DNA of 64,000 nt. Origin: Chiayiivirga flava (GTDB lineage: Bacteria; Pseudomonadota; Gammaproteobacteria; Xanthomonadales; Xanthomonadaceae). How positions within the stretch are numbered: the stretch's first letter is position 1; each line of letters begins with the position of its first letter. The notes under the pieces were generated by a model that saw only the letters and a list, made by a program, of their open reading frames with translations, had not been told where the DNA came from and made no database searches. This document shows positions 8,808-25,853 of the stretch, piece by piece. The DNA lies in NCBI RefSeq assembly GCF_014202825.1, contig NZ_JACHHP010000006.1, positions 1 to 64,000 on the forward strand. The letters run 5' to 3'. A program made the position numbers and the translations under genes.

Positions 8808-11759
<2,952 letters not shown>

Positions 11760-19625: not shown

Positions 19626-22600
19626 ATGAAAACGAAACTCCGGATCACACGACTCGCCGGCGCGCTCGCCGTGCTGCTCGCCACCGCACCGGCGTATGCA
19701 CAGCAGACCTCGGCCAATCTGGCCGGCCGCATCACCAACAACGACGGCAGCTCGCTCGCCGGCGCCGAGGTGACGATCGTCCACACGCCTTCCGGCACCA
19801 CCAGCCGCGCCGTGACGGACGAAAACGGCCGCTACACCGCGCGCGGCCTGCGCGTCGGCGGCCCGTACACCGTCACCGTCACCAAGGACGGCTACCGCGG
19901 CGAAGCCTCGGAAAACGTGTACCTGCTGCTGGGTGAAACCGCCGACGTCAACGTCGATCTGGACGTCGCCGCCACCGAACTGACCTCGGTCGAAGTCGTC
20001 GCCTCGGCCGGCGGCTACGATCTGTTCTCCTCGGCCAAGATGGGCAGCGGCACCAACGTGTCGCAGGAGGAAATCGAAGCCCTGCCGTCGATCAACGGCA
20101 ACATCCAGGACTACATCCGCCTCGACCCGCGCGTGGCGTTCACCGATCGCGCGTCCGGCACCATTACCGCCGGCGGCCTCAACCCGCGCTTCAACAAGAT
20201 CTCGATCGACGGCGTCTCGGCCAGCGACACCTTCGGCCTGGAAGGCAACAACCTGCCGACGCAGCGCCAGCCGGTCTCGATGGAAGCCATCGAAGCCATC
20301 GACATCAACCTGTCGAACTACGACGTGACCTTCTCCGGCGCGGCCGGTGCCAACGTCAACGCCGTCACCAAGTCCGGCGGCAACGAATTCCACGGTTCGG
20401 TCTACGGCTACTACCGCGACGGCGACTGGTTCGGCGAGCACCCGCTCACCGGCGACGAATTTGCCGAGTTCGACCAGGAAGAAACCTACGGCGGCACGTT
20501 CAGTGGTCCGCTCATCAAGGACCGCCTGTTCTTCTTCGCCAACTACGAGAAGTACACCCGCGGCCAGCCGACCCCGGACATCAGCAACACCCCGCTCAAC
20601 CGCGCCGACGGCGACTTCGACGCCGCTGACCTCGCCGAAGTGCAGCGCATCGCCGCCGGTTACGGCATCGACGCGGGCGGCATCACGGGCGACGGCGACA
20701 CCCAGCTCGAAGAAAAGGCGATCAAGCTCGACTGGAACATCAGCGATGCCCACCGCGCCAACCTGCGCTACAGCAACCTCGAGCAGGAACGCGTGCGCCC
20801 GGAAGGCTCGGGTCCGAGCACGCTCGCGCTGAGCTCGAACTGGTACACGCACGAGAAGTCGGTCGAGAGCTACGTCGGCCAGCTGTTCAGCGACTGGTCC
20901 GACACGCTGTCGACCGAGTTCAAGGCCTCGTACCGCGACTACTCGGCCGTGCGCGTCAATCCGACCAACGCGCCGACGATCCAGGTCTACTTCGACGACG
21001 GCAATCCCGATACCGGCATCACCAACGGCGACTTCATCCGCCTCGGCACCGAGCGCAGCTCGGGCGGCAACACCCTGCTGACCGAAACCTGGAACTACTT
21101 CGGCGCCGCCACCTGGGCGCTCGGCGACCACGACCTCAAGGCCGGGGCCGAGTACAGCGAAAACGAGATCTACAACTACTTCCTGCAGGACTCGTTCGGC
21201 AACTACAGCTTCTACGGCCTCGAAGCCTTCGAAGCCGGCGAGTACTTCGATTACGACCTGCAGACCGCGGCGTTCCCGGGCTCGGTCCCGGCGCAGTACA
21301 CCAACAAGAGCCTCGGCCTGTTCCTGCAGGACACCTGGTACGTCAATTCCAACCTCACGCTGAACTTCGGCGTGCGCGCGGACAAGCCGACCACGAGCCC
21401 GGATCCGACCTTCAATTCGTGCTTCGCCTCCGCGCCGGTCGCCACCGGTACCGGCCCGGCCGACTGCCCGAACGGCGGCTTCGGTCGCGACAACAGCAAT
21501 ACCTTCAGCGGCGACTTCATCATCCAGCCGCGCTTCGGCTTCAACTACATGTTCGACACCGATCTTCCGACGCAGCTGCGCGGCGGCATCGGTCTGTTCC
21601 AGGGCGACGCGCCGCAGGTCTGGGTGAGCAACTCCTACCAGTCCACCGGTCTGAACAACATCTCGTACTCCAACATCACCGACTTCGCGAACGTGCCATT
21701 CAGCCCGGACGGCTTCAACCAGCCGACCGACGCGCTGTCCGCGCTGCCGGGTTCCGCGAACCGCAACGTCAACGTGATGGCCGAAGACTTCGACCTGCCG
21801 TCGGTGTGGAAGGCGAACCTCGCGCTCGACGTCGAGCTGCCGTGGCAGGGCGTGGTCGCGTCCGGCGAGCTGTTGCTGACCGACGTCAAGGACGGACTGT
21901 TCTACCGCACCCTGAACGTCGGCCCCGGCTTCATCGGTCCCGACGGCCGCGCTCTCTACTGGGATCCGAACTTCGTCGGTCGCTATCCGACGTCGGGCTC
22001 GGCCTACACGGCAACGTCGCGCTTCGGCCGCAACAGCTACTTCGGCGACGTGTTCGAAATCGCCAACACCAACAAGGGCAAGGGCCAGCAGATGACCCTG
22101 TCGCTGACCAAGCCCTTCAGCGTGGACAGCGATTGGTCGTGGAGCGTGGGCTACACCTACACCGACGCCACCGAAGTCGGCGCGCTGACCAGCTCCACCG
22201 CGGGCTCGGGCTACGGCGGCCAGCTCGGCTTCAACATCAACGATCCGACCGCCACGACCGCGCGCTACGAGATCAAGAACCGCTTCACCGGTGCCTTGAA
22301 CTGGCAGCACAACTTCTTCGGCGACTACGCGACCCAGATCGGCCTGTTCTACGAAGGCCGCAGCGGCCGTCCGTACAGCTACATCTTCGCCGGCGACGCG
22401 AACGGCGACGGCCGTACCTTCAACGACCTGTTCTACGTCCCGAACGGCGACGTGCTGTTCGGCTCGCTCAGCAGCTCGGGCGTGTTCACGGCCGATCCGC
22501 TGATGGAACAGCGCTTCAACGAGTTCCTCGCTGCCAACCCGCACCTGGCGTCGCACGCCGGCACCTACGCGCCGGAGAACGGCTTCCGCGCCGGGTGGGT

Positions 22601-22916
22601 CAACACCTTCGACGTGCGTTTCAGCCAGGAACTGCCGGGCTTCTTCCGCGAGCATCGCTCGGAGATCTGGCTCGACATCCAGAATGTCGGCAACCTGATC
22701 AACGACGACTGGGGCCACGTGATCGACTACGGCTTCAACGCCAACAACGCGGTCGCGAGCCTGCAGGGCATCTACAACGGCCAGTACGTGTACGGCTACC
22801 GCAGCGGCACCGAATTCGGCCAGGCCAGCGCGCTCGGCGTGCCGACCGACGCCGATCGCCAGACCAACGGCATCTCGCAGTGGTCGCTGCAGGTGGGCTT
22901 CCGCTACCGCTTCTGA
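19626..22916 (+). CDS. Oar-like TonB-dependent outer-membrane receptor with N-terminal carboxypeptidase-regulatory-like domain
   Basis: Outer-membrane protein of 1096 residues. A signal peptide ends near APAYAQQ (about 25). A CarboxypepD-regulatory-like beta domain (about 30-115) contains NLAGRITNNDGSSLAGAEVTIVHTPSG and GRYTARGLRVGGPYTVTV. The plug follows, with PSINGNIQDYIRLDPRV and GANVNAVTKSGGNEFHGSVYGYYR, then a long beta-barrel ending WSLQVGFRYRF with terminal aromatic F, typical for BAM insertion. This is the Oar family (adhesion/OM remodelling in myxobacteria; peptide or glycan uptake proposed elsewhere). Its ligand here is unknown. It stands alone between a long leader and a strong terminator. 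Confidence 0.92.
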   Translation: MKTKLRITRLAGALAVLLATAPAYAQQTSANLAGRITNNDGSSLAGAEVTIVHTPSGTTSRAVTDENGRYTARGLRVGGPYTVTVTKDGYRGEASENVYLLLGETADVNVDLDVAATELTSVEVVASAGGYDLFSSAKMGSGTNVSQEEIEALPSINGNIQDYIRLDPRVAFTDRASGTITAGGLNPRFNKISIDGVSASDTFGLEGNNLPTQRQPVSMEAIEAIDINLSNYDVTFSGAAGANVNAVTKSGGNEFHGSVYGYYRDGDWFGEHPLTGDEFAEFDQEETYGGTFSGPLIKDRLFFFANYEKYTRGQPTPDISNTPLNRADGDFDAADLAEVQRIAAGYGIDAGGITGDGDTQLEEKAIKLDWNISDAHRANLRYSNLEQERVRPEGSGPSTLALSSNWYTHEKSVESYVGQLFSDWSDTLSTEFKASYRDYSAVRVNPTNAPTIQVYFDDGNPDTGITNGDFIRLGTERSSGGNTLLTETWNYFGAATWALGDHDLKAGAEYSENEIYNYFLQDSFGNYSFYGLEAFEAGEYFDYDLQTAAFPGSVPAQYTNKSLGLFLQDTWYVNSNLTLNFGVRADKPTTSPDPTFNSCFASAPVATGTGPADCPNGGFGRDNSNTFSGDFIIQPRFGFNYMFDTDLPTQLRGGIGLFQGDAPQVWVSNSYQSTGLNNISYSNITDFANVPFSPDGFNQPTDALSALPGSANRNVNVMAEDFDLPSVWKANLALDVELPWQGVVASGELLLTDVKDGLFYRTLNVGPGFIGPDGRALYWDPNFVGRYPTSGSAYTATSRFGRNSYFGDVFEIANTNKGKGQQMTLSLTKPFSVDSDWSWSVGYTYTDATEVGALTSSTAGSGYGGQLGFNINDPTATTARYEIKNRFTGALNWQHNFFGDYATQIGLFYEGRSGRPYSYIFAGDANGDGRTFNDLFYVPNGDVLFGSLSSSGVFTADPLMEQRFNEFLAANPHLASHAGTYAPENGFRAGWVNTFDVRFSQELPGFFREHRSEIWLDIQNVGNLINDDWGHVIDYGFNANNAVASLQGIYNGQYVYGYRSGTEFGQASALGVPTDADRQTNGISQWSLQVGFRYRF

Positions 22917-22938
22917 TCGGTTTCACCACGCTGCATCG

Positions 22939-22969
22939 AAAACGGCCGGGGCAACCCGGCCGTTTTTTT
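22939..22969 (+). terminator. Rho-independent terminator of the Oar-like receptor
   Basis: AAAACGGCCGGG, GCAA, CCCGGCCGTTTTTTT: a GC-rich stem with flanking A and T runs, 23 bases after the receptor stop. An almost identical copy, including upstream bases, lies at 24363-24395. Confidence 0.93.
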
Positions 22970-23351
22970 GTGTTTGACCTAGGTGTATTTCTCGCAACCT
23001 GGCTTGTGCACGAGTCACGGCACGTTTGGCCGCCCTCGTCATGCTTTTGGCAGCCGATGTGCACAAGTTCGGCGGCGGAAATGGCGCCTAGTAGCTCTTG
23101 TTGCAAGCTATCCGCTTTCATGCGATTGCAGTCAATCGAATTCAATGTGAAATAAAAGTGTCCCGGTCAAGGTGGGACGGCTTTCACATTTTTCCGGAGG
23201 TATGTTCCGTAACGTGGGGCGCGCACGATAGCGAGGCGCGTGAACGTAGCAAGGGGGGCTGCTCAGGGATCTAAAAGACAAAAATCACGCTTGCTGGTCG
23301 ATGCGCGAACGAAGGATCCCGATCTCAATTCAACACCTGTGAGGAAAGATC
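22970..23351. other. Lower-GC gap before the secreted orphan protein; no gene supported
   Basis: About 380 bases, clearly poorer in G+C than the surroundings. It includes GATTGCAGTCAATCG and TGTGAAATAAAAG (about 23115-23158), a weak candidate promoter for the next gene. The 100-residue frame beginning at 23240 overlaps the better supported gene at 23352 in another frame and has no plausible features, so I leave it out. Confidence 0.4.
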
Positions 23352-23906
23352 ATGACGAATCGATTGAACACCCTATGCGCTGTGGCCGCAGGCGGATTTC
23401 TTCTGTGCAGTGGTGTCAACGCACAATCCGTGTCGATTTCCGGTTACACAGATCCTGGCGCCTGTGCGAATATAGAGGCGCCTACCACCGCAATCGGTGG
23501 CCAATATGTCGTTTTTTTGCAGGATGGCACGTGGTCGCTTAGTGAGGATGTGTCCGGCACCACCACAGTTCTCGACAGCGGCACATGGGTCAGCGGTTCA
23601 TTCAGTGCGTCAAATTATGAGATCAGAGCCGTGGGTACGTTGTACTATGATCATGAATCCGGTGGCGGGTCCAGTTGTCAGGATCCCGACAATTACTATG
23701 AGACAAGCTACAACTCGGGCTGGTCAACGTTGGTGCCTAGCTTCCTTCAGCCTGCCACGGGCGTTTACACGCAGAAGGATGCGTTTTGTTACTGGGCTCA
23801 GGATATCAATGGGTTCACAGGCACATTTCAAATTCGGCAAATCTCCAACCACTCCAACACCGATACGATCAGCGTCAATCTTTGCGCGCGTGGCTACGCG
23901 TACTGA
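23352..23906 (+). CDS. Secreted protein of unknown function, lower-GC accessory gene
   Basis: 184 residues. A signal peptide MTNRLNTLCAVAAGGFLLCSGVNA is followed by a mature part with four cysteines (GACAN, SSCQD, FCYWA, NLCARG), which could form two disulfides. The composition is aromatic- and serine-rich (YYETSYNSGW, YVVFLQDGTWSLSEDVSG) and looks beta-rich. GAGGAAAG lies before the ATG. By my count the middle of the gene is about 53% GC against roughly 67% around it, suggesting acquisition. I do not recognise the family. It sits in a segment bracketed by two copies of the receptor's 3' end and may be co-transcribed with the following lipoprotein gene (11 bases later). Confidence 0.8.
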   Translation: MTNRLNTLCAVAAGGFLLCSGVNAQSVSISGYTDPGACANIEAPTTAIGGQYVVFLQDGTWSLSEDVSGTTTVLDSGTWVSGSFSASNYEIRAVGTLYYDHESGGGSSCQDPDNYYETSYNSGWSTLVPSFLQPATGVYTQKDAFCYWAQDINGFTGTFQIRQISNHSNTDTISVNLCARGYAY

Positions 23907-23917
23907 GGATCCAGGGC

Positions 23918-24298
23918 ATGCTTGGTGAATCCTCTCGTGATTGTTTTCGTCTGCTGGTCTTCTCAAGTGTGATTGGATTGGCGTCGGGGTGCTCGACTGC
24001 CCCTCCGGCATCTGAGGGTGACTACAGCACCGAACGCCGCTACGAGATGGCCTGCGACTCGGCGAGCCGCGACATCGATACGCTGATGGTCCACTGGGAC
24101 AATCTCAGGTCGGGCGAGCGCATGCCGGCGCAGCAGGTCATGCAGGCGCGGCAGGCCATGCGTGTCGTCGGACCGGTGTGTGACGACATCGATGCCGCAT
24201 TGATGCTGGACAACGTGGGGCAGGCGAGAGTGGAGGCGGCCTTCCGCACGCTCGAGCACATGGCAAGGAACCTGCCCCGCCTTCCGGCAGGTTCCTGA
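23918..24298 (+). CDS. Small putative lipoprotein of unknown function
   Basis: 126 residues. The N-terminus MLGESSRDCFRLLVFSSVIGLASGCSTAPPASEG looks like a lipoprotein signal with LASGC as the lipobox, followed by a small flexible linker and a mostly helical domain (YEMACDSASRDIDTLMVHWDNLRSG ... ARVEAAFRTLEHMARNLPRLPAGS). ATG 23918 was chosen, with GGATCCAGGG before it, because it starts the signal; the open frame upstream overlaps the previous gene. GC rises toward the 3' end to the chromosome norm. Family not recognised. Confidence 0.7.
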   Translation: MLGESSRDCFRLLVFSSVIGLASGCSTAPPASEGDYSTERRYEMACDSASRDIDTLMVHWDNLRSGERMPAQQVMQARQAMRVVGPVCDDIDAALMLDNVGQARVEAAFRTLEHMARNLPRLPAGS

Positions 24299-24362
24299 GG
24301 GGCAGGAAGCTGTGGCGGCAGGCGTTCCGGACCGCTTCCGATCGTTCCGCCACGCTGCATCG

Positions 24363-24395
24363 AAAACGGCCGGGGCAACCCGGCCGTTTTCTTTT
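24363..24395 (+). terminator. Rho-independent terminator, duplicate of the receptor terminator
   Basis: AAAACGGCCGGG, GCAA, CCCGGCCGTTTTCTTTT. It and the 20-plus bases before it (CCACGCTGCATCG) repeat the region after the Oar-like receptor. It would end the transcript of the two orphan exported-protein genes. Confidence 0.9.
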
Positions 24396-24479
24396 GCGGC
24401 CCCCGGCGTTGCGCATATTCAGCGGGGGCGGCGCTTATGTCATGCTTGCCGACCCTCACCGCCGAACGCACGGATCCCC

Positions 24480-25853
24480 ATGTCGCCTGCCACCGTCAAC
24501 GCCCGCATTTCCCCGCGCGGCGGCCTGGATGTGCTCTCCCGCCACGAAGTGAGCCGGTTGCGCGATGCCTCCAGCGGCGGCCTGCACGAACTGCTGCGCC
24601 GCTGCGCGCTGGCGGTGCTGACCTCCGGCAGCGCGTCGGACGATCCGCGCGCGGCGCTGGTGCGTTATCCCGACTTCGACATCCAGGTGCAGCAGCAGGA
24701 CCGCGGCATCAAGATCGAACTGGCGCACGCGCCGGCCGAGGCCTTCGTCGACGGCAAGATCATCGTCGGCGTGGCCGAGTTGCTGTACGCGGTGGTGCGC
24801 GACATCGCGTACGTCTCGACCGAAATCCAGGGCAGCGGCGAGTTCGATCTCGGCGCCTCCGACGACATCACCAGCGCCGTATTCGAGATCCTGCGCAACG
24901 CGCGCATCCTGCGCCCGCACGTGGACCCGAACCTCGTGGTGTGCTGGGGCGGCCACTCGATCGGGCGCGAGGAATACCTCTACACCAAGTCGGTCGGCTA
25001 CCAGCTCGGCCTGCGCGCGATCGACATCTGCACCGGCTGCGGCCCGGGCGCGATGAAGGGCCCGATGAAGGGCGCGACCATCGCGCACGCCAAGCAGCGC
25101 CGCCGCTCCAACCGCTACATCGGCATCACCGAGCCGGGCATCATCGCGGCCGAATCGCCGAACCCGATCGTCAACCACCTCGTGATCATGCCGGACATCG
25201 AGAAGCGTCTCGAAGCGTTCGTGCGCGTGGGTCACGGCATCATCGTGTTCCCCGGCGGCGTCGGCACGGCCGAGGAAATCCTCTACCTGCTCGGCATCCT
25301 GCTGCACCCGGACAATGCCGGCACGCCGTTCCCGCTGGTGTTCACCGGCCCGAGCGCGGCGGCGGCGTACTTCGAGCAGATCGACCGCTTCCTGCGGCTG
25401 GCGCTCGGCGATTCGGTGGCCGAGCACTACCGCATCGTCGTCGAGGATCCGCGCGAAGTCGCGCGCGCCATGCAGCGCGGCATGGACAAGGTGCGTGCGC
25501 ACCGGCTCGATACGAAAGACGCCTTCTTCTTCAACTGGGCACTGCGCATTCCGGCCGAGTTCCAGCACCCGTTCGCGCCCACGCACGAGAACATGGCGCG
25601 CCTCAAGCTGCACCGCGACCAGCCCGCGCACCTGCTCGCGGCGGATCTGCGGCGCGCGTTCTCCGGCATCGTCGCGGGCAACGTGAAGGAGGAGGGCATG
25701 CGCGCGATCGAGCAGTTCGGTCCGTTCGTGATCGACGGCGAGCCGGACATCATGCGCGCCCTCGACGACCTGCTGCGCGCCTTCGTCGCGCAGAACCGGA
25801 TGAAGATGTCGGGTGAGTACAAGCCGTGTTACCGGGTGGTGGCGGCGGACTGA
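24480..25853 (+). CDS. ppnN: Pyrimidine/purine nucleotide 5'-monophosphate nucleosidase PpnN (LOG family)
   Basis: Cleaves nucleoside monophosphates to base and ribose 5-phosphate; in E. coli it is a (p)ppGpp-responsive enzyme (YgdH). It has 457 residues. The central LOG/lysine-decarboxylase-like domain shows CWGGHSIGREEY, GCGPGAMKGPMKGA and the signature FPGGVGTAEEILYLLG. Flanking N- and C-terminal domains (RYPDFDIQVQQQDRGIKIEL; GMRAIEQFGPFVIDGEPDIMRALDDLL) match full-length PpnN rather than a short LOG protein. ATG 24480 follows a run of CCCC. It is single, between a terminator and the pilin operon. Confidence 0.95.
   Translation: MSPATVNARISPRGGLDVLSRHEVSRLRDASSGGLHELLRRCALAVLTSGSASDDPRAALVRYPDFDIQVQQQDRGIKIELAHAPAEAFVDGKIIVGVAELLYAVVRDIAYVSTEIQGSGEFDLGASDDITSAVFEILRNARILRPHVDPNLVVCWGGHSIGREEYLYTKSVGYQLGLRAIDICTGCGPGAMKGPMKGATIAHAKQRRRSNRYIGITEPGIIAAESPNPIVNHLVIMPDIEKRLEAFVRVGHGIIVFPGGVGTAEEILYLLGILLHPDNAGTPFPLVFTGPSAAAAYFEQIDRFLRLALGDSVAEHYRIVVEDPREVARAMQRGMDKVRAHRLDTKDAFFFNWALRIPAEFQHPFAPTHENMARLKLHRDQPAHLLAADLRRAFSGIVAGNVKEEGMRAIEQFGPFVIDGEPDIMRALDDLLRAFVAQNRMKMSGEYKPCYRVVAAD

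Follow-up and report, generated by a model that had tools for sequence, protein, structure and literature searches.

Between the gene for an Oar-like TonB-dependent outer-membrane receptor and ppnN, a 64,000-nucleotide stretch of Chiayiivirga flava DNA (analysed as a whole and called the window here) carries about 1.36 kb of additional DNA that is bracketed by two copies of the receptor gene's 3' end and terminator. We propose, with a probability of roughly 0.55, that this segment is a foreign cargo captured between Oar and ppnN through recombination for which the conserved terminator of the receptor gene served as anchor. The locus contains the following features.

19626–22916, + strand: Oar-like TonB-dependent outer-membrane receptor, 1096 aa (CarboxypepD_reg, Plug, OMP_b-brl_4)
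22906–22972, + strand: repeat copy 1, with the last receptor codons, stop, spacer and terminator
22938–22967, + strand: intrinsic terminator of the receptor gene, with a 13-bp stem, GCAA loop and T tract; hairpin kept here across the family
22973–24330, no strand: inserted segment, including the lowest-GC stretch of the window and missing at the same place in most relatives
23352–23906, + strand: orphan gene, 184 aa, with a signal-peptide-like start as predicted from the sequence; GC 53%, CAI 0.28
23918–24298, + strand: orphan putative lipoprotein gene, 126 aa, with lipobox LASGC; GC 63%, CAI 0.40
24331–24396, + strand: repeat copy 2, with the receptor stop TGA changed to CGA and the hairpin intact
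24363–24391, + strand: second terminator hairpin, identical to the first and carrying the T-tract tail CGTTTTCTTTTGCGG that is usual at this locus
24480–25853, + strand: ppnN, pyrimidine/purine nucleotide monophosphate nucleosidase, the conserved right neighbour of Oar

Gapped comparison aligned the two repeat copies, i.e., 22906–22972 and 24331–24396, at 91% identity (E = 8.8e-20), and ungapped comparison gave 53 nt at 92%. The match runs from CGCTTC(T/C)GATCG, i.e., the last receptor codons with the stop, through the spacer with CCACGCTGCATCG to the terminator hairpin with its GCAA loop. It confirms the repeat that an earlier note on this DNA had placed at about 22910–22966 and 24334–24390. 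Within it, the 28-nt hairpin does not differ between the copies. The repeat score exceeded all those obtained from 1000 dinucleotide shuffles, and a search of the 4.07-Mb genome returned this pair as the sole two copies; the remaining matches were short, had E values of at least 0.1 or represented self-pairing of the hairpin. An extension of the similarity upstream into the last ~11 receptor codons was not significant, as 127 of 1438 random window stretches scored equally. Because the CGTTTTCTTTTGCGG tail after the right hairpin is the form common in relatives, the right-hand copy probably occupies the original context.

The 1.36 kb between the repeat copies have 53% GC compared with 68% for the window, and the lowest 900-bp GC windows of the entire 64 kb are located at about 22950–24050 (52.6% versus a mean of 67.7%, SD 3.2). 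The low value of 53% is limited to the first ~1 kb of the insert and the open reading frame 23352–23906, with the gene at 23918–24298 reaching 63%. Hence, of the earlier description of two exported-protein genes with GC near 53% at their core, the overall low GC holds, whereas the second gene departs from it. Codon adaptation, referenced to six genes of this window as the host set, was 0.28 for the first gene and 0.40 for the second, compared with minima of 0.56 and 0.53, respectively, in host windows of the same length. The comparison of GC and codon adaptation that had been suggested earlier gave the GC minimum of the 64 kb within the segment and, for both genes, CAI values below all host windows tested. 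The segment between the terminators is probably foreign DNA.

Searches with the 184-aa protein against Pfam, plasmid, phage and IMG/VR sequences and genomes of the family, order and phylum returned only marginal matches, and its single-sequence structure model was unusable (mean pLDDT 33). The search with the 126-aa lipoprotein likewise returned only marginal matches. Given the signal-peptide-like start of the first gene product and the lipobox of the second, the cargo probably encodes surface or periplasmic accessory proteins. No Rfam match came near gathering thresholds, no sigma-70-like promoter was found within the segment, and no integrase or transposase was recognised in this insert or in that of Xanthomonas bonasiae described below. 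Both terminators look intact, so that transcription of the cargo is probably separate from that of the receptor gene and of ppnN, with the two genes forming an insulated unit. We also observed a 34-nt inverted match (79%) between 24114–24147 in the lipoprotein gene and 24580–24613 in the 5' part of ppnN, probably a chance likeness in GC-rich coding DNA.

To compare the locus with its relatives, we collected 80 ppnN loci from other genomes; among the genomes covered, the genus of the window has a single representative, so that the empty site is read from other genera. The order SOD–glutaredoxin (grx)–marC–Oar–ppnN is widely conserved. Where Oar lies directly upstream of ppnN, the two genes are 110–378 bp apart in 50 of 56 loci and 653–2889 bp apart in the other six. 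A single terminator is usual in the gap; its stem is commonly ACGGCCGGG/CCCGGCCGT, and its loop is often of the GNRA type. As gaps are short and terminators usually single, the ancestral arrangement would most simply be Oar–terminator–ppnN, with an insertion and a second terminator copy in the window. As in insertion-hotspot islets, the DNA between the conserved flanking genes varies and is missing from most relatives, and the cargo of the window is of foreign composition, with at most marginal matches in the databases and genomes searched. Insertion in this spacer is not always accompanied by duplication, because four of the six large-gap loci (L023, L026, L051 and L072) lack a duplicated terminator. 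In L072 (3041–3695) the spacer holds a small gene pair that by eye resembles a toxin–antitoxin module, and in L051 (8130–9700) a DDE transposase fragment (PF13358).

Xanthomonas bonasiae (L037/G315) carries a 2.7-kb insert with 48% GC in the same spacer, flanked on both sides by the identical hairpin ACGGCCGGGGCAACCCGGCCGTTTT. Its cargo includes one gene with a Fic domain (PF02661, E = 1.9e-9) and two others of 315 and 174 aa, the 174-aa product having a signal-peptide-like start. The site is empty in all 19 other sampled species of its GTDB genus, and in alignments with these empty sites the two X. bonasiae flanks overlap around the hairpin. The cargos of X. bonasiae and the window are unrelated and have no gene in common. 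In both, direct repeats derived from the target are found at both insert ends. The X. bonasiae repeat begins at the hairpin and extends ~35 bp beyond it, its right copy being free of receptor sequence; the window repeat begins ~32 bp before the hairpin, so that nothing but the hairpin and its T tract is common to both. Judged from these sequences, X. bonasiae represents a second insertion event, independent of that in the window but at the same position. Since the same kind of insertion occurred at the same spot, the Oar–ppnN spacer looks like an insertion hotspot centred on the conserved terminator. The earlier view of the segment as an insertion between two receptor 3' ends is supported by this parallel and by the empty site usual in relatives.

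Lysobacter sp. yr284 may be a third, weaker case of a duplicated terminator, where none of 1000 shuffles reached the score, albeit by a small margin (43 versus a maximum of 41). We rejected the Stenotrophomonas maltophilia group as a further duplication; two similar hairpins ~140 bp apart are alike over the hairpin only, and shuffling gave as good a match in 6 to 9 of 1000 trials. Between these hairpins (L049, L053, L055 and L058, about 9700–10000) we noted by eye a promoter-like TTGCAG-17-TAGCAT. The ~140-bp stretch could be a small RNA gene; it had no Rfam match.

The hairpin occurs zero to two times per genome in the family, and Oar adjoins 18 of 30 fetched occurrences. The earlier note had considered that the terminator might be a widespread repeat unrelated to receptor genes, and these counts come from a test of that possibility, though in some species the same hairpin also follows SOD. 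This was so at 9 of 57 loci (L043, L044, L046, L051, L052, L062, L066, L073 and L077), where SOD ends in the same ACGGCCGGG-loop-CCCGGCCGT hairpin as Oar. As SOD is located ~6 kb upstream on the opposite strand, these nine loci contain an inverted pair of near-identical terminators. No Oar-type hairpin was found at the SOD gene of the window.

The receptor gene itself varies strongly between species. Within the X. bonasiae clade, two species can have Oar sequences of 45% identity where ppnN is 95–98% identical (L179, L180 and L182 compared with L175–L178 and L037). For pairs with different receptor types, nucleotide identity is 66–67% within the receptor gene, drops to 61% between its stop and the hairpin, and rises to 97% in the hairpin; beyond the hairpin, the same type of comparison gave 90% for the next 60 bp and 94% for ppnN. 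Even between related species spacer identity is merely 61–66%. On the left side of the exchanged receptor, the leader and signal-peptide region are likewise conserved. This pattern indicates exchange of receptor alleles between species, with the right boundary at or just before the terminator. It is consistent with recombination at the hairpin but is no proof of it, as selection for termination alone could conserve the hairpin. We rejected the joint import of a divergent receptor and the cargo in X. bonasiae: its receptor is 94% identical to that of the nearest relative and the flanks are 95–96% identical. With a receptor not clearly more divergent than the flanks, there is no evident sign that X. 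bonasiae gained its insert by importing an entire new receptor allele. Across ppnN from the receptor gene, the minor-pilin cluster varies as much as Oar.

For the capture that we propose, we infer the recombination steps from the end product. Donor DNA bearing a receptor end, a terminator and flanking cargo would pair with the resident terminator region. The other end of the donor would then join at most a few dozen bases away from the resident hairpin by one-sided or short-homology recombination. This would leave a second copy of the last receptor bases and the terminator on the far side of the cargo. That one-sided homology can import foreign DNA has published precedent (PMC3240628). More tentatively, the Oar terminator might be a standing recombination anchor throughout Lysobacterales that bounds receptor allele exchange and repeatedly captures unrelated, terminator-insulated cargo.

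The main rival is a remnant or non-autonomous site-specific element whose att site would be the receptor 3' end with its terminator, the repeats being attL and attR. The 66-bp identity block restores the target gene end, as with integrases that target gene 3' ends, and X. bonasiae has a second insertion at the same point. However, neither insert has a recognised integrase or transposase, the two cargos lack a common gene, and the identity blocks of the two cases coincide in the hairpin and T tract only; we consider such an element unlikely. Repair of a break at the terminator palindrome, cut during replication, would capture foreign DNA between overlapping ends and thereby duplicate a few dozen bases of the target. 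It would account for duplications that in both genomes span the hairpin but differ in their ends. It also predicts similar inserts at other strong hairpins, and we regard it as improbable.

The earlier note had alternatively suggested that the segment replaced a second tandem receptor gene, whose body was exchanged for, or decayed into, the present sequence with the end alone left. Copy 2 indeed retains the last receptor codons (CGCTTC), the spacer and the hairpin. Yet the insert contains no receptor-like remnant beyond chance in any frame, two Oar genes were found in none of 65 loci, the extension of the repeat into the receptor is not significant, and the right copy in X. bonasiae lacks a receptor end. 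We also looked for other receptor genes with this 3' end, as had been proposed; the genome has two further Oar-like genes (31% identity), and neither carries it. A former tandem receptor is thus quite improbable, and this part of the earlier interpretation is not upheld. Finally, the inserted genes could have brought a terminator of their own that resembles the receptor's by chance, as the family favours this hairpin. The same hairpin after the SOD gene fits such convergence, as does the second S. maltophilia hairpin near ppnN, which resembles the first over little beyond the stem. In the window, the match takes in the non-hairpin spacer and receptor codons, although spacers diverge strongly even between related species. 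Convergence is already disfavoured for the window by this spacer match, and we give it very little credence there; it may apply to the hairpins of the S. maltophilia group. Compared with these alternatives, capture anchored at the terminator remains our preferred reading.

We regard this as a real but modest finding. Accessory DNA at an insertion hotspot is nothing out of the ordinary, but here the junction is unusually easy to read and has at least one independent parallel. Empty state, filled state and duplicated junction are all directly visible at this concrete and comparable hotspot. Should the terminator indeed be the anchor, the rapid exchange of a surface receptor would be tied to the capture of genes behind it, and one could explain how cargo arrives without disturbing transcription of the neighbours. 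In the literature searched, where coverage was incomplete and absence is weak evidence, we found no description of a terminator-flanked hotspot.

Among known systems, genomic islets, i.e., small accessory inserts at chromosomal hotspots, are alike in foreign composition, orphan genes, conserved flanks and species-specific cargo. In contrast to these, the hotspot described here is centred on a receptor terminator, which flanks the insert left and right in both the window and X. bonasiae. Integrative elements at gene 3' ends share the direct repeat of the target gene end and leave the gene end intact, but here no recombinase was recognised, the inserts are small, and the repeat block differs between the two cases. 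Homology-facilitated illegitimate recombination would, like the proposed capture, yield one homologous and one non-homologous junction; at this locus, it would be read solely from the end product.
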